Positions 9,993-58,105 of a stretch of 64,000 bases of DNA are shown one piece after another; the stretch's first letter is position 1; each line of letters begins with the position of its first letter. This DNA is from an uncultured Aequorivita sp. Its GTDB lineage: Bacteria > Bacteroidota > Bacteroidia > Flavobacteriales > Flavobacteriaceae. Location of the stretch: the NCBI GenBank assembly GCA_937125455.1, contig CAKZLK010000017.1, positions 62,001 to 126,000 on the forward strand. The letters run 5' to 3'. The notes under the pieces were generated by a model. The model searched no databases. It was given only the letters and a program-made list of their open reading frames with translations, and was not told where the DNA came from. A program made the translations under genes and the position numbers.

Positions 9993-11357
9993 ATGTCCCT
10001 TTTTTCAAAAATCAAGCAAACCATTCATTTAATGAAAGACATCGATCTTGATGCCTTGGGAAAACTTTCGCAAAAAGTAGATCTTTCTGAAATCATGAAA
10101 ACCGTTGGCGAACTCGATGATCGTCAATTGCAAGGTTTAATGAAAATGTTGAAATATAAAAGTGGTAAAAGAGGCCAGCACAAATTACCGCCCATTGATG
10201 GCGATTTTTACGATCTGGCTTTAAAACTGAGTCCCGAACAACGCGAACTACAGCTAAAAGTTCGCAATTTTATGGAAGACGAAGTAAAGCCAATCGCCAA
10301 TGAATACTGGAACAAAGCTGAATTTCCATTTCAAATCATCCCTAAAATGGCAGAATTAAACATTTGCGGACTTACCTATGAGGGTTACGGAACACCAAAT
10401 GAAACCTACATAATGGAAGGGATAATAGCGATGGAACTTGCCCGTGTTGATGTTTCCATTTCTACCTTTTTTGGGGTGCACAGCGGTCTTGCAATGGGTT
10501 CAATATATATCTGCGGAAGTGAGGAACAAAAACAGGAATGGCTCCCCAAGATGGCCAGAATGGAGCTTATTGGCGCCTTTGGCCTTACCGAACCCGATGT
10601 GGGTTCAGCAGTCGCAGGTGGAATGAGAACCACTTGCAGGCAAGAGGGTGATGAATGGGTTTTGAACGGACAGAAAAAATGGATTGGGAATGCCACATTT
10701 GCCGATGTTATTATTATATGGGCACGCGATGAAGCTTCCGATCAAGTAAAAGGATTCCTAATTCGAAAAGGAAATCCAGGCTTTAAAGCTGAAAAAATTG
10801 AAAACAAAATGGCGCTTCGTACCGTGCAAAATGCGCTGATAACTTTGACGGACTGCCGCATTCCCGAAAGTGACCGTCTTCAAAAATGTGATTCGTTTAA
10901 AGATACGGCAAAGGTATTGCGAATGACCCGTGCCGGAGTAGCTTGGCAAGCGGTGGGTTGTGCAAGAGGTGCTTATGAAGCAGCCTTGAAATACACAAAA
11001 AAGCGCGAACAGTTTGGAAAACCAATTGCTTCTTTTCAATTGGTTCAAAATCATTTGGTAGAAATGGTAGCAAATTTAACCGCAATGCAAACCATGTGTT
11101 TCCGACTTTCGGAATTACAGGATGAAGGTTTGTTGACTGATGAACACGCTTCACTAGCAAAAGTATTCTGTAGTATGCGAACCCGCGATGTAGTTAGTCA
11201 GGCACGCGAAGTTATGGGCGGAAACGGAATTTTACTCGAATATGACGTTGCCCGTTTTGTTGCCGATGCCGAAGCAATTTATAGCTACGAAGGAACCAAA
11301 GAAATCAACTCGCTGATTGTGGGTCGTGCGATTACGGGGTACAGTGCTTTTGTTTAA
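9993..11357 (+). CDS. Acyl-CoA dehydrogenase, glutaryl-CoA dehydrogenase-like
   Basis: The 454-residue flavoprotein should oxidise an acyl-CoA and pass electrons to ETF. The C-terminal motif YEGTKEINSLIVGRAITG closely resembles glutaryl-CoA dehydrogenase, including the catalytic Glu in YEGT. FGLTEPDVGS and WIGNATFADV are FAD/substrate-loop motifs. An N-terminal helical extension of about 60 residues precedes the first acyl-CoA dehydrogenase helix (LSPEQRELQLKVRNF). I chose the ATG at 9993, because the GTG at 9936 would add an unconserved-looking leader. A role in lysine/tryptophan breakdown is possible, as a saccharopine-dehydrogenase-like gene lies at 60004, but the substrate is unproven. 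Confidence 0.85.
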   Translation: MSLFSKIKQTIHLMKDIDLDALGKLSQKVDLSEIMKTVGELDDRQLQGLMKMLKYKSGKRGQHKLPPIDGDFYDLALKLSPEQRELQLKVRNFMEDEVKPIANEYWNKAEFPFQIIPKMAELNICGLTYEGYGTPNETYIMEGIIAMELARVDVSISTFFGVHSGLAMGSIYICGSEEQKQEWLPKMARMELIGAFGLTEPDVGSAVAGGMRTTCRQEGDEWVLNGQKKWIGNATFADVIIIWARDEASDQVKGFLIRKGNPGFKAEKIENKMALRTVQNALITLTDCRIPESDRLQKCDSFKDTAKVLRMTRAGVAWQAVGCARGAYEAALKYTKKREQFGKPIASFQLVQNHLVEMVANLTAMQTMCFRLSELQDEGLLTDEHASLAKVFCSMRTRDVVSQAREVMGGNGILLEYDVARFVADAEAIYSYEGTKEINSLIVGRAITGYSAFV

Positions 11358-11358
11358 T

Positions 11359-11423
11359 GTCCCCTCCCGCCTACCCAAAGGGGAGGAGTTATCCAACGTT
11401 TCCCCTTTGGGGGCAAGGGGGAC
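11359..11423. repeat. 65-bp inverted pair of GC-rich palindromic repeats
   Basis: The element starts with GTCCCCTCC and ends with AAGGGGGAC, so its ends are inverted repeats. Each half also has an internal C4..G4 hairpin (CCCAAAGGGG on the left, CCCCTTTGGGGG on the right). The right half shares 22 identical bases with 55926-55947 inside leuS. It exactly fills the gap between the converging acyl-CoA dehydrogenase and aldo/keto reductase genes and supplies the TAG stop of the latter. It could act as a two-way terminator. It looks like a nuclease-free form of the bracket around the leuS insertion. Confidence 0.8.
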
Positions 11424-27596: not shown

Positions 27597-28059
27597 TTTG
27601 TCCTGTGTTTATGTACACCAAAATATCGTTGATGCATTTGTTGAGGTTGTTCTTTATTTCGTTGGTCCAAAACCGAAAGACGGTAAAACCCATTTCTTCA
27701 AGTTGATGGTTCACTTCCCGGTCGCGCTGCATATTGCGCTCAATCTTTGGAATCCAAAAACCACGATTGCTTTTTAAGACTTCTTTTCGTTCCGGCCAAT
27801 TGTAACCGTGCCAAAATTCGCCATCAATGAAAATGGCAAGTTTGTATTTTATGATGGAAATATCCGGTTTTCCGGGCAGTTTTTTGCTGTCCACGCGATA
27901 ACGGATGCCTTTTTTCCAAAGGGCTTTTCGGAAAAGCAATTCAGGCTTTGTATTTTTCCCACGGATTTTGCTCATAATTTTTGAGCGTTTTTTTGTGGTG
28001 TAGAAACCGGAATCTTCACTGAATCTTGGAACTTTTATTATTTCCTCCTCATAAATCAT
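27589..28059 (-). CDS. Vsr-like very short patch repair endonuclease
   Basis: The 156-residue protein has the Vsr core: MSKIRGKNTKPELLFRKALW, PGKPDISIIKYKLAIFIDGEFWHGYN and FWIPKIERNMQRDREV, each given in part. The catalytic Asp in KPD and the FWHG motif are kept. The zinc-binding His/Cys residues usual around HGCFWHGHDC are not seen (DGEFWHGYNW). The first 28 residues are an extension, and translation might instead start at the internal Met at 27975. Classical Vsr nicks T:G mismatches at Dcm sites, but no cytosine methylase lies in this window. It overlaps the aminotransferase gene by eight bases. Confidence 0.85.
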   Translation of the reverse strand: MIYEEEIIKVPRFSEDSGFYTTKKRSKIMSKIRGKNTKPELLFRKALWKKGIRYRVDSKKLPGKPDISIIKYKLAIFIDGEFWHGYNWPERKEVLKSNRGFWIPKIERNMQRDREVNHQLEEMGFTVFRFWTNEIKNNLNKCINDILVYINTGQND

Positions 28060-53639: not shown

Positions 53640-54512
53640 ATTTTAAAAAACATACTGAAATATCTAAAAATTTCTCGTCCGGGACTTTGGTTTCCAACAA
53701 TTTGGATTTATTTGGTCTCTTTTGACCTTTCTTCAGATTTTTGGGAAAAATCACTTTTTTGGGTTGGTCTCTTATATGTTACGTTTCCTTTGAATTTCTT
53801 AGTTTATGGATTAAACGATTTTACAGATGGCAAAGCAGATTCATTAAATCCACGAAAAGGCAATTATTTATTTGGAGCTAAACTGAATAAAGAAGAATTA
53901 AAATCGGTTCCATGGTATATTCTTATCGTAACGGTACCTTTTCTAGCCTATTTCTCTTACGTTGGTGGTGGAGAACTATTTATTTTACTGTTGTTTATGA
54001 TTGTTATTAATATTATATACAACTACAAACCTTTCCGACTTAAACGGCGGCCGCCTTTTGATGTTTTAATGCAAATTGGCTATGTTTTTACAGCTCTCTT
54101 TAGCATTCTTTTGAATGATTTGGAAATGCTTCCATGGCAAACCCTGCTTTATCTCACACTTTTTGCATTCCAAGCGCACATCGCCGGAGAAATTATGGAT
54201 ATTGAGCCCGATATTTTAGCTAAAAAGAAAACCACGGCAGTTTTAATGGGAAGAAAAAAAGCAAAGTTTTTAATGTTCTTCCTACTGTTGTTTGAAGCCT
54301 ATATTTTGAAATTTTGGTTTGATGATTGGGTGCTTTCATCATTTTTGGCCGCTTTTGCCTTTTGGTTGCTTTTAGATGTTTTCATCTTTTTCAAAAATAA
54401 ACCGTATACCGTTCCACAAATGAAACTTTTCGGAATTGCAATGAATGTTGCAGCAATTCTTTCAATGGTTTGGGTGCTTTATTCCGGAAATCTACTCCAT
54501 CCAAATTTTTAA
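53640..54512 (+). CDS. UbiA-family prenyltransferase, no standard start codon for the full frame
   Basis: The membrane enzyme has the metal/diphosphate motif NDFTDGKAD (NDxxDxxxD) and a second Asp site in GEIMDIEPD, on about eight helices, typical of UbiA prenyltransferases. The first usual start is TTG at 53712, but the same frame upstream encodes [20 protein letters not shown], the usual UbiA N-terminus. No ATG, GTG or TTG lies between the stop at 53616 and 53712 in this frame. I therefore place the start at the ATT at 53640, with ATA or CTG at 53652-53657 as alternatives. The prenyl acceptor is unknown. Confidence 0.75.
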
Positions 54513-54543
54513 ATTATAGGGTTTTACTTCTTCCAATAAACCT

Positions 54544-54551
54544 TAAATTTG
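54544..54551 (+). promoter_or_regulatory. -7 promoter element for leuS
   Basis: TAAATTTG fits TAnnTTTG, 56 bases before the leuS ATG at 54608. The leader contains a small inverted repeat AAGGAA..TTCCTT. Confidence 0.5.
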
Positions 54552-54607
54552 CCATCGTGTTCCGAAGTCTAGGCGAAGGAACTTCCTTTTTTCAGAAAAA
54601 AATTATA

Positions 54608-57600
54608 ATGAGCAAATATCACTTCAACGAAATAGAAGATAAGTGGCAGCAAATCTGGCGCGAGAGAAAAACTTTTAAAGCTGAAAACAAAAGCGAAAAA
54701 CCAAAATATTACGTTTTGGATATGTTTCCCTATCCTTCCGGTGCGGGCTTGCACGTTGGGCACCCGCTCGGGTATATTGCCAGTGATATCTACGCCCGCT
54801 ACAAACGCCATCAAGGTTTTAATGTGTTGCATCCGCAGGGCTATGATTCTTTTGGACTTCCGGCGGAACAATACGCTATCCAAACTGGGCAGCATCCAGC
54901 AAAAACTACCGAAGAGAACATTGCGCGTTACCGTGAACAGCTTGACAAACTAGGTTTTTCATTTGATTGGAGCCGCGAAGTTCGTACTTCAAATCCTGAA
55001 TATTACAGATGGACGCAGTGGATTTTCCTGCAGCTTTTTGATAGCTGGTATGATAAAGACCAAAATAAAGCGCGTGCAATTGAAGAATTGCGTGTTATTT
55101 TTTCTTCGGAAGGAAATGTACACGTAAACGCGGTTTGTGATGAAGGGATTGCACATTTCACCGCTTCAGAGTGGCTTGATTTTTCAGAAACAAAAAAACA
55201 GGAAATTCTTTTAAAATATAGATTGACCTATTTGGCCGAAACCGAAGTAAACTGGTGTCCGCAACTTGGAACTGTTTTGGCAAATGACGAAATAGTAAAC
55301 GGCGTTTCCGAACGTGGTGGCTATCCCGTGGTTCGAAAAAAGATGAAACAGTGGAGTATGCGAATTACTGCCTACGCCCAACGTTTGCTTGATGGACTCG
55401 ATAAAATAGACTGGCCACAACCCTTGAAAGATTCTCAAACCAATTGGATAGGGCGGAGTAAGGGAGCGACTGTGGAATTCAAAGTCCTTCCCCCAGCCCC
55501 TTCCGAAGGAAGGGGAGCAGATAGTGCTGGATATTTAACAGGAAATTCCAAAATAATAGGCACTTTACTTTCGCGAGCTAAAGAAATGCGTAAAAATCCA
55601 ACAAAAGCAGAATCTGTTTTATGGAACGAATTACGAACAAAAAAAGTAGGTTTCAAATTTCGTCAACAACATCCAATCGATAATTATATAGTTGATTTTG
55701 TTTGTCTTTCGAAAAGATTAATAATTGAAGTTGATGGTGAAATACACCAATATCAATTGGAAAAAGATGGTGAAAGAGAATTGTTGCTAAAAGAGAAAAA
55801 AGGATTCAAAATTTTACGTTTCACTAATGATGAAGTTATAAATAATCTTGAAACGGTACTTTCAAAAATTGAACAAACTTTAAAGATTCTCCCATCAATA
55901 GAGGATTCAGAACAGCCCCAAATCCCCCCTTTGGGGGCAAGGGGGACAATCCCTGTATTTACAACGCGCCCCGATACTATCTTCGGTGTAAGCTTTATGA
56001 CCTTGGCTCCGGAACACGATTTGGTATCAAAAATCACAACTCCTGAACAAAAAGAAGCTGTTGAAAATTATATTGAAGCTACTGCAAAACGAAGCGAGCG
56101 CGAACGAATGGCCGATGTAAAAACCATTACCGGCGTTTTCACAGGCGCGTATGCAGAACATCCTTTTACGGGTGATTCCATTCCAATTTGGATTGGCGAT
56201 TACGTTTTGGCAGGCTACGGAACGGGTGCTGTAATGAGCGTTCCCTGCGGTGATCAGCGTGATTATGATTTTGCAAAACATTTCAATCTGCCCATCCCGA
56301 ATATTTTTAAGGATGCTGATATTTCTGAGGAAGCTTATTCCGATAAGGACAATACAATCATTACCAACAGCGATTTTTTAAATGATTTAAATTATCAGCA
56401 AGCAACGGAAAAAATTATCGCTGCATTGGAAGAAAAAGGCGTTGGCGAAGGCAAAATAAACTACCGTTTGCGCGATGCCGTTTTCAGTCGTCAGCGGTAT
56501 TGGGGCGAACCGTTCCCTATTTATTACAAAGATGAAATGCCGCACCCAATCCCGACGGAATGTTTGCCGTTGCGTCTTCCCGAAGTTGAAAAATACCTTC
56601 CCACGGAAGAAGGCGAACCCCCTTTGGGCCGCGCCTCAAAATGGTATTGGAACGAAAAAAATAATGAGGTTGTCTCCCCTCCTTTGGAGGGGCAGGGGGA
56701 GGACATTTATCCACTTGAATTAAATACGATGCCGGGTTGGGCGGGAAGCAGTTGGTATATGTTCCGATATATGGAAGATGCAAAGCGCGACGAAGTTTTC
56801 GCCTCAAAAGAAGCGTTGAACTATTGGAAAAATGTGGATTTGTACATTGGCGGAAGCGAGCACGCAACTGGACATTTGTTGTACAGCCGTTTTTGGGTAA
56901 AATTTATGCACGACCGCGGCTTGGTTCCGGTTGAAGAGCCTTTTAAAAAGCTGATAAACCAAGGGATGATTTTGGGGGAGAGTGCGTTTATACAACGTAT
57001 TGAACGAATATACTTTGAAACTAAAGTTGATGGCAAACCTTTTGGATATTTCTCTATAGATAAAACGGTATTCATATCAGATAAAATCTTTGAAAAAGGT
57101 GAGATAGGAAAAGAAATATTGAAAGATAATCTACCACTTAGAGAACTAGATCAAAAAAGTAATGAATATATTATTCAGAACATTGATTCGTATCGTGTAA
57201 AAATAATTGTAAATAATATTCATGCTGATGTATCATTTGTAAATATTCATAACGAATTAGACATCGAAGCTTTCAAAAACTGGCGAGAAGAATATAAAAA
57301 CGCAGAATTTATTACCGAAGAAGATGACTCTTTCAAAGTTTCCCGCGAAGTAGAAAAAATGTCAAAAAGCAAATACAACGTGGTAAACCCCGATGACATT
57401 TGCAATCAATACGGCGCCGATACGTTGCGAATGTACGAAATGTTCCTCGGCCCGCTGGAACAAGCAAAACCGTGGAATACCGCCGGAATTACTGGTGTGC
57501 ACGGCTTCCTAAAAAAACTTTGGAAACTCTACCATTCAGGCCCAAATGATTCATTTTACGTTACTGACACCCCTCCTTCGGAGGGGCTGGGGGAGGCCTT

Positions 57601-58051
57601 GAAAACCCTTCACAAAACCATTAAAAAAACGCAGGAAGATATTGAGCATTTCAGTTTCAATACTTCGGTTTCGTCTTTTATGATTGCTGTGAATGAGCTT
57701 ACTTCCCAAAACTGTAATTCTCGCGAAGTTTTGGAACCGTTGGCAATTCTTATTTCGCCTTACGCGCCACACATTGCCGAAGAACTTTGGCAGAAATTGG
57801 GGCATTCGGAAAGTATTTCCACTGCGCCTTTTCCAAAATTTGAACAGCAATATTTGGTTGAAAGCAGCAAGGAATATCCAATCTCCTTCAACGGAAAAAT
57901 GCGATTTACATTGGAACTTCCGTTGGATTTAAGTAAAGATGAAATAGAATCTGCCGTAATGGCACATGAAAAGACAGCCCAGTATTTAGAGGGGCGCACG
58001 CCGAAAAAGGTAATTATCGTACCTGGAAAAATCGTGAATATTGTAGGTTAA
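54608..58051 (+). CDS. leuS: Leucine--tRNA ligase with an inserted DUF559 nuclease domain and palindrome-derived segments
   Basis: The 1147-residue class I synthetase should be about 930-950 residues in this group. Catalytic parts are intact: HIGH-type [16 protein letters not shown] at about 39-54, KMSKS at about 918-922, and the editing-domain TTRPDTIFG after residue 450. Three in-frame additions are seen. Residues about 294-447 (between EFKV and PVFTTRPD) hold a full DUF559 endonuclease domain flanked by repeats. Residues 689-699 and 987-997 are 33-bp palindromic repeats read as eleven codons each. All keep the frame, so a single long protein is likely made. The ATG at 54608 ([13 protein letters not shown]) is chosen over upstream starts. 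Confidence 0.95.
55487..55515 (-). repeat. Left palindromic bracket of the leuS insertion
   Basis: The hairpin CCCCTTCCGAAGGAAGGGG is preceded by CTTCCCCCAG. It is the inverted form of the copies at 56672 and 57566. In the protein it reads [11 protein letters not shown]. Confidence 0.85.
55926..55947 (+). repeat. Right palindromic bracket of the leuS insertion
   Basis: CCCC-TTT-GGGGG followed by CAAGGGGGAC is a short-hairpin variant of the family, matching 11402-11423 base for base. In the protein it falls within IPPLGARGT. Confidence 0.85.
56672..56704 (+). repeat. 33-bp in-frame palindromic repeat inside leuS
   Basis: The copy starts GTCTCCCCTCC and ends GGGGGAGGAC around a TTTGG centre and reads [11 protein letters not shown] in leuS. 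It lies just before [17 protein letters not shown], a conserved block, so it is an addition in a loop. Confidence 0.85.
57566..57598 (+). repeat. 33-bp in-frame palindromic repeat inside leuS, second copy
   Basis: The copy starts GACACCCCTCC and ends GGGGGAGGCC around TTCGG and reads [11 protein letters not shown]. It matches the 56672 copy in nearly all central bases. It lies between LWKLYHSG and [10 protein letters not shown], a loop in the anticodon-binding part. Confidence 0.85.
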
Positions 58052-58105
58052 AAATTAGCACGCTTTTTGATTAAATTTGAAGTAAGAATTTAAAAACGAA
58101 ATAAA

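Follow-up and report, generated by a model that had tools for sequence, protein, structure and literature searches.

A putative selfish homing-type element with a DUF559 nuclease and palindromic ends in the leucyl-tRNA synthetase gene of Aequorivita

The leucyl-tRNA synthetase gene (leuS) of an uncultured Aequorivita species carries, in frame, a 464-bp element that encodes a DUF559 nuclease domain and ends in two inverted palindromes. It lies in a 64,000-nucleotide stretch (assembly GCA_937125455.1, contig CAKZLK010000017.1, positions 62,001 to 126,000), which we call the window and whose coordinates are used below unless another contig is named. Comparison with counterparts in other genomes makes it fairly probable, in our judgement, that this is a selfish homing-type DNA element, in which a DUF559 nuclease gene bounded by inverted G/C-run palindromes sits in frame in host proteins with no intron or intein. 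An original prediction, made from the window alone, had placed an in-frame DUF559 insert at 55484-55947 of leuS, and these coordinates prove exact to the base; the palindromic ends, two solo palindromes further along leuS and the many other hosts go beyond it.

The inserted element in leuS

The host gene, the element and the palindromes of leuS are as follows:

54608-58051, plus strand: leuS, leucyl-tRNA synthetase (LeuRS), the host gene; a single open reading frame (ORF) of 1147 amino acids
55484-55947, plus strand: whole inserted element, 464 bp, GTCC...GGAC, in a hairpin loop of the CP1/editing domain
55484-55517, plus strand: left terminal palindrome, a C-rich tail and a hairpin at 55497-55515; encodes an 11-residue peptide
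55571-55882, plus strand: DUF559 nuclease domain (Vsr-like/EDxHD-type), LeuRS residues 322-425 by Pfam
55923-55947, plus strand: right terminal palindrome, the hairpin CCCCC-TTT-GGGGG and a G-rich tail; encodes IPPLGARG
56676-56702, plus strand: solo palindrome unit, in frame in a second LeuRS loop; encodes a 10-residue peptide
57570-57596, plus strand: solo palindrome unit, in frame in a third LeuRS loop, after KMSKS; encodes a 10-residue peptide

The gene is the sole match of a genome-wide LeuRS search (E 1e-30), and its 1147 codons are free of stops and retain the HVGH, TTRPDT and KMSKS motifs, as had been predicted. Pfam places PF04480 (DUF559) at residues 322-425 (E 9.9e-34; 115.9 bits against a curated cut-off of 20.6), with the editing-domain family beginning at residue 446. 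The conserved E, Q, D, E-x-D and H of the family, to which a catalytic role is attributed, are all present in the window domain, bearing out the earlier statement that the Asp and Glu-x-Asp of the nuclease core are retained. The element begins with the G of GTCC at 55484 and ends with the C of GGAC at 55947. An insert-free allele of the same genus (L139) matches the window exactly in GAATTCAAA before and AATCCCTGT after the loop, with 20 nt between them. Relative to that allele, which may be the older or the younger state, 464 bp stand where it has 20 nt, a net gain of 444 nt, or 148 codons, and not the roughly 154 first estimated. The closest named loci are those of Aequorivita lipolytica and A. 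todarodis, with an insert 93% identical.

The right palindrome is an inverted version of the left, each being a hairpin with a C/G-run tail, and neither contains a stop in any of the six frames. With the frame open and the palindromes stop-free, the predicted product is a host enzyme that has one domain more, placed in a surface hairpin, the nuclease apparently being kept in frame and unspliced. Apart from DUF559 and its relative MTES_1575, Pfam finds no family in the element, and in particular no transposase and no HUH tyrosine transposase.

Modelled alone, the domain gives a fold with pLDDT 84.8. The best solved match by Foldseek is the putative endonuclease-like protein 3hrl (E 1e-7), followed by the catalytic domain of I-Bth0305I (3r3p; E 4.6e-5 and 1.7e-4), with Vsr matching weakly (1cw0, E 0.05; 1vsr, 0.22). 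A profile search returns the same top two (3hrl, 3.3e-33; 3r3p, 2e-7). By this model, the homing endonuclease I-Bth0305I is the nearest functionally characterised fold. A model of LeuRS residues 230-642 is modest (pLDDT 69.9, pTM 0.51); its sole use here is to locate the domain, which it puts between one strand at model residues 52-64 and another at 218-223.

Nothing but the odd arrangement itself speaks for an assembly or annotation artefact, or for an intein or intron that has escaped recognition and would leave the finished enzyme without the insert; we consider either hardly credible. The same arrangement recurs in 33 named contigs (L010-L042), isolates and one complete genome among them, and at least 15 of the 299 family genomes have it (14 recognised through the flanking protein, and G215 through coordinates). 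No intein family is found by Pfam in the window LeuRS at E 0.01, the insert ending instead in palindrome-derived peptides, and no intron family by Rfam over 54500-58100 at E 1.

Patchy distribution, selection and exchange of the leuS insert

The same loop is occupied in 47 of the 87 LeuRS rows examined (43 distinct, four rows duplicating others), which excludes an insertion there by chance; since the other 40 rows were picked as probably empty, 47/87 is not a frequency. Relatives without the insert include two genomes of the same genus (L139, L140). On the best tree of the 87 rows, presence and absence require 17 changes, seven of them forced by supported (starred) branches with the empty state, and distinguishing two types of insert (A, B) at this loop raises the count to 21. 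A. todarodis, with the insert, and G027, lacking it, are neighbours in the tree (support 85). A fixed family feature is rejected by the absences within the genus and the 17 state changes. Occupation of one site in some relatives and its vacancy in others, as in homing elements, is found for leuS.

When free of a nuclease, the LeuRS CP1 loop (L139-L178) and loops of MetH (L228, L237), another host protein treated below, are often filled in frame by unlike short repeats, namely TTCAGAATTCAG repeats, GTCACTTCGAGCGCAGTCGAGAAG, ATTGCGAGCGAAGCGAAGCAATC and CATGCTGAGCTTGTCGAAGC. With such varied fillers, these loops appear to serve small repeats in Flavobacteriaceae as general landing sites.

The residues E16, D44, E55, D57 and H61 are invariant in all 43 leuS inserts and conserved in at least 141 of 142 copies overall, their catalytic role being presumed from the family. 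By a simple Nei-Gojobori count over 17 chosen close pairs, the ratio of nonsynonymous to synonymous divergence (dN/dS) of the insert is 0.02-0.19 (median 0.04), compared with 0.02-0.09 for leuS (16 pairs, one being undefined), indicating that the leuS insert is under strong purifying selection. These values bear on the two readings originally offered. Patchiness, core conservation and dN/dS favour a homing-like selfish element; the tolerated passenger fares badly, no decay being seen. An inert passenger would be a neutral insertion that is tolerated in a surface loop and slowly decays. The variety of fillers that the loop accepts agrees with it, yet decay would be expected, and the core is kept in 43/43 inserts at a median dN/dS of 0.04. 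We regard it as very improbable.

Synonymous divergence suggests that the insert has also moved apart from its host gene. Only close pairs were used for this question, as synonymous divergence over all pairs is mostly saturated. In L019/L023 (both Arenibacter), 5 of 63 synonymous sites of the insert differ (proportion of differing synonymous sites, pS, 0.08), compared with a pS of 0.39-0.52 in each of six other leuS segments. Among 13 selected pairs, insert divergence is clearly lower in seven (p 1.1e-10 to 3.5e-3), five of which are not independent, being drawn from four Muricauda-type sequences. One further pair gives p 0.016; in the remaining five, the window pairs included, insert and leuS divergence are alike. 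Over all 903 pairs of the 43 inserts, most of them uninformative on transfer, the Bonferroni-significant cases weigh against such movement, with the insert lower in six and higher in 18. Among the insert-higher pairs, the 17 listed of the 18 have a host pS of at least 0.69, near saturation. The five listed of the six insert-lower pairs comprise two that are saturated (L024/L064, L015/L064) and three that are not (L019/L023, p 3.7e-10; L024/L029, p 1.0e-6; L038/L039, p 1.6e-6). The low pS of these three unsaturated pairs implies a recent exchange of the insert without the leuS around it, in three pairs at the least, which constitutes horizontal transfer apart from the host gene, a second property of homing elements.

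Other host proteins and the palindromic mobile unit

In drawn samples, 121 of 299 family genomes and 184 of 395 phylum genomes have PF04480 matches (E 1e-5), a few weak ones probably being Vsr relatives. With NCBIfam and Pfam models supporting the hosts, DUF559 either lies within the reading frame of members of 17 protein families of Bacteroidota or is fused to them:

Host set 1: LeuRS (two sites), MetH, RecG, IleRS, HemD, HisD, UDP-galactopyranose mutase (Glf), HsdR
Host set 2: HsdM, Eco57I-type methylase, His_biosynth (HisF-like), RNase H, coproporphyrinogen oxidase (HemF)
Host set 3: M23 peptidase, PurL-type GATase_5, N-formylglutamate amidohydrolase (FGase), type ISP enzyme

Apart from the first LeuRS site, 18 host proteins were searched with these models, and one (L115) matched no host family. 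Among the hosts other than the M23 peptidase, the domain is internal in LeuRS, IleRS, MetH, RecG, Glf, HsdR, HsdM and the methylases, and terminal in HemD, HisD, HisF, RNase H, HemF, FGase and PurL. Terminal fusions are weaker examples, because translation could begin at an internal start. Of the MetH copies, 11 precede the cobalamin domain, 2 lie in the activation domain and 1 is at a further site, and the second LeuRS loop, which holds a solo palindrome in the window, contains a full DUF559 insert in two other Bacteroidota (L187 and L191).

A tree of 142 DUF559 domains, built on 108 columns and with 61 of its 139 inner branches unresolved, requires 28 changes of insertion-site label, compared with 84.5 after shuffling, and none of 200 shuffles is as low. 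The LeuRS, MetH, RecG, IleRS and Glf inserts belong to one starred group of 75 rows, which also takes in two solo copies and a few more; copies from HemD, HsdR, the methylases, HisF, HemF and RNase H are placed elsewhere in the tree. This strongly suggests that DUF559 lineages are site-specialised, clustering by insertion site.

The spread over hosts also bears on a domesticated domain, that is, a nuclease recruited for useful work in LeuRS, such as cleavage of tRNA or phage DNA or the tethering of repair, and kept by selection on the host. Such a role would fit an insert dN/dS as low as that of the host and the core residues conserved in 43/43 inserts; DUF559 is also present in the restriction-modification proteins HsdR and HsdM and in Eco57I-type methylases, where a nuclease could help defence. 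It accords poorly with presence that is patchy even within a genus, with unrelated hosts that have no common function (RecG, MetH, HemD, HisD, HemF, PurL-type GATase) and with exchange of the insert between species later than leuS itself in three pairs. PADLOC, moreover, assigns no defence family to the window LeuRS protein. Domestication seems to us unlikely. A known defence system was likewise rejected, the PADLOC match of the domain alone to SspH being weak (E 0.0067) and taken as general nuclease similarity.

The limits of the putative selfish element are best seen in genome G215, where one metH (L066) holds two DUF559 copies that are sisters in the tree (support 80). They align from AGCCCCCC(nn)CCCCCAAAGGGGGAG to CCCCTTTGGGGGCGGGGGGGGCT, with unrelated flanks beyond, and this palindrome-to-palindrome alignment defines the mobile unit. 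In a comparison with related MetH loci (L220-L238), which runs between genera and is approximate, the loops appear to be replaced and not split; two of these loci, L228 and L237, have long inserts of their own at MetH site 1. Clean insertion with target duplication was not seen at the metH copies.

Across the 142 distinct copies, the left flank compared with its own reverse-complemented right flank gives a mean of 20.6, and a control pairing flanks of different loci 12.8. Hairpins lie within 170 nt of the domain on the left in 25, on the right in 20 and on both sides in 16 of the 43 leuS copies, compared with a background rate of 0.02. The other classes are lower, with 7 left and 14 right among 27 solo copies, 4 and 5 among 14 MetH copies, and 0/3 for the methyltransferases (MTase). 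Inverted ends flank DUF559 on average in eight cyanobacterial and two Firmicute copies, so the architecture may extend beyond Bacteroidota. Free-standing DUF559 genes with inverted repeats around them are seen in these groups in L052, L058, L062 and L063.

Several of these results tell against the favoured reading. Only 28 of the 142 copies reach the 99th percentile of the mismatched-flank control for inverted ends. The ends are weak in RecG (mean 13.9 against 10.9; hairpins on the left in 1/8, on the right in 4/8), and hairpins are few in HemD (2 left and 1 right of 8) and HsdR (2 and 1 of 5). No target duplication accompanies the two metH copies when set against the related loci. Degraded copies are also under-sampled, because the leuS inserts were found via similarity, and a domain was counted among the 142 only with E <1e-12, a length of at least 85 residues and no stop. 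The counts by class indicate that some copies have kept clear palindromic ends and that in the others these have eroded.

Palindromes also occur alone. A hairpin filter applied to the whole window (GC-rich, stem of at least 6, loop of 3-5) passes only three, all in leuS (55497-55515, 56676-56692 and 57570-57586); the right-end hairpin of the element, with its five-base stem, falls below it. The hairpin of the third loop recurs in other species, and nine of 11 post-KMSKS hairpins of relatives lie 71 residues behind KMSKS. Outside the insert loop, 39 insert-bearing LeuRS frames (window copy excluded) have 24 hairpins between them, spread over 16 frames, compared with three in 144.9 kb of surrounding DNA. 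Twenty insert-free LeuRS genes contain three, of which that in L218 lacks the C/G runs. Restricted to full-length leuS, a hairpin is present in 13 of 28 genes with the insert versus 3 of 20 without it (p 0.031). In the window genome the exact palindrome has only four matches at up to three mismatches and is therefore not a high-copy repeat.

The pattern CCYTCYTTYGRAGRGG is present in 48 of the 299 family genomes; read backwards as a control, it is present in 10, once each. DUF559 is present in 32 of the 48 palindrome-positive genomes versus 89 of the 251 others (p 8.9e-5), and in 13 of 14 genomes with at least two matches versus 108 of 285 (p 4.7e-5), relatedness being uncontrolled in both tests. 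When nine genomes with weak matches only are counted as DUF559-negative, the figures become 30/48 versus 82/251 (p 1.5e-4) and 13/14 versus 99/285 (p 1.7e-5). As some palindromes adjoin the nuclease and relatedness is uncontrolled, the association is support and not proof. Counting against a tie between palindrome and nuclease, the reversed control (10/299) implies that some of the 48 positives are chance, solo palindromes occur in insert-free leuS too (L213, L214), and G263 clearly departs from the rule, having eight palindromes but no DUF559.

Such cases could mean that the palindromes are the mobile units, moved by another enzyme, with DUF559 as a hitch-hiker trapped between a pair of them, or as a resolvase that acts on them, and not the driver of the insertions. 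Solo palindromes in leuS, purL and intergenic DNA, some genomes having no DUF559 match, lend this some weight, as do the quite different repeat families that fill the same LeuRS and MetH loops with no nuclease. Set against it are the presence of DUF559 in 13 of the 14 genomes with two or more palindrome matches, the inverted ends of the cyanobacterial and Firmicute copies, and the leuS element itself, in which Pfam finds no other gene. On balance this explanation seems distinctly improbable.

Proposed route of spread and relation to known systems

Under the favoured reading of a selfish homing-type element, a discrete palindrome-ended unit occupies the same leuS loop in many, though not all, species, and its nuclease recurs in loops or at the termini of other proteins. 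The LeuRS-nuclease fusion, or a fragment of it, would cut element-free alleles, either sequence-specifically or at palindromes, and repair from the occupied allele would copy the element in, the original loop being lost with no target duplication. The element would be shielded from loss by its host gene, which is essential and would be destroyed by a deletion or frameshift of the insert. Renewed homing between species would explain why only intact nucleases are observed, and the single palindromes in leuS, in purL and between genes may be non-autonomous derivatives or footprints.

Homing nucleases are usually harmless because they are housed in a splicing element or between genes. The DUF559 nuclease appears to reach the same harmlessness as a well-behaved protein domain with stop-free DNA ends, in 17 families and, in LeuRS, deep within an essential enzyme. 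Inteins with homing endonuclease domains place a nuclease in frame in conserved proteins and are horizontally mobile; the leuS insert resembles them in its placement, but no splicing domain was found in it, and unlike an intein it should stay in the mature enzyme. A bolder and more doubtful proposal is that these elements are splice-free analogues of inteins, whose palindromic ends double as stop-free linkers, which would let them be copied into surface loops of essential enzymes and translated there as one more domain, and whose essential host shields them from deletion, the palindromes being both recognition ends and a source of small in-frame repeats in Bacteroidota. On the favoured reading, small palindromic repeats inside proteins would be linked to a specific nuclease family, the hosts would provide a natural list of the protein loops in which a 150-residue domain is tolerated, and the spread of selfish DNA through coding sequence would become directly testable by a simple assay.

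Among known systems, the EDxHD homing endonucleases of the I-Bth0305I type resemble the leuS insert in fold and profile, and a DUF559-containing gene is assigned to the EDxHD family in the section on inteins of an earlier report (PMC9403480). I-Bth0305I is described as coming from mobile group I introns and as having a long multi-domain DNA-binding structure (PMC3943268). The leuS insert, in contrast, is a bare domain of about 110 residues inside the host frame, with inverted palindromic ends and no intron or intein found. It thus differs from homing elements in its carriage, being neither in an intron or intein nor free-standing between genes.

With the Rickettsia palindromic elements (RPE) it has in common palindromic DNA in frame in coding sequence. 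As they are described, RPE lie in frame in unrelated metabolic genes and, at about 150 bp, code for a short peptide that is conserved (PMC10969869); they have CGTC at one end, and the products of RPE-bearing genes are likely functional (PMC3733652). The leuS-type elements, by contrast, encode a DUF559 nuclease and end in GTCC..GGAC or AGCC..GGCT. For the CGTC repeats inside proteins, one account reports that no dedicated mover was found (PMC3733652). REP/REPIN sequences with RAYT (REPtrons) are similar in having a gene between inverted palindromes and scattered solo palindromes (for the RAYT part, PMC3733652), but RAYT is a tyrosine HUH transposase, whereas the enzyme here is a Vsr-like nuclease and many copies lie inside coding sequence. 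Vsr and Caulobacter VsrA, the latter described as containing a DUF559 domain (PMC12907096), belong to the same nuclease superfamily but are free-standing enzymes with a proposed role in very short patch repair. Of the features of an insertion sequence, no transposase family is found in the leuS element and no target-site duplication was seen at the two metH copies.

A search of the literature, mostly open full texts, on DUF559, in-frame palindromes, in-frame homing nucleases, synthetase nuclease domains, I-Bth0305I and whalefall-1 found no description of such an element, a homing-type nuclease in frame in an essential enzyme, apparently unspliced and with palindromic ends; the link between DUF559 and EDxHD had already been published.

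Elsewhere in the window there is one further feature of this kind:

11359-11423, no strand assigned: intergenic 65-bp mini-element, GTCCCC...GGGGGAC, with both terminal palindromes and no nuclease gene

It directly follows an ORF ending at 11357 that is acyl-CoA dehydrogenase-like (named by eye), and is likely a non-autonomous relative of the leuS element. In the same genome, a palindrome of this kind lies in frame in a purL-like ORF (L008, 1501-1527, contig C59; KLPSLGGVGGGRPK; named by eye), and a free-standing DUF559 copy with an internal TGA has palindromes on either side (L002, contig C43:386727-387041). Three PF04480 matches exceed the cut-off in this genome, namely L002, a Vsr-like gene and the leuS copy. 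At 27610-27738 on the minus strand (L003) there is a Vsr-like frame, recognised by eye, with a partial PF04480 match (E 1.7e-6) and of the same nuclease superfamily. The solo palindrome at 56673-56704 gives a sub-threshold Rfam match to the whalefall-1 RNA (RF01762; 23.9 bits against 37, E 0.0042). By the account in PMC2864571 this RNA family is reported only from whale-fall DNA, and it might itself be a palindromic repeat of the leuS-element kind.

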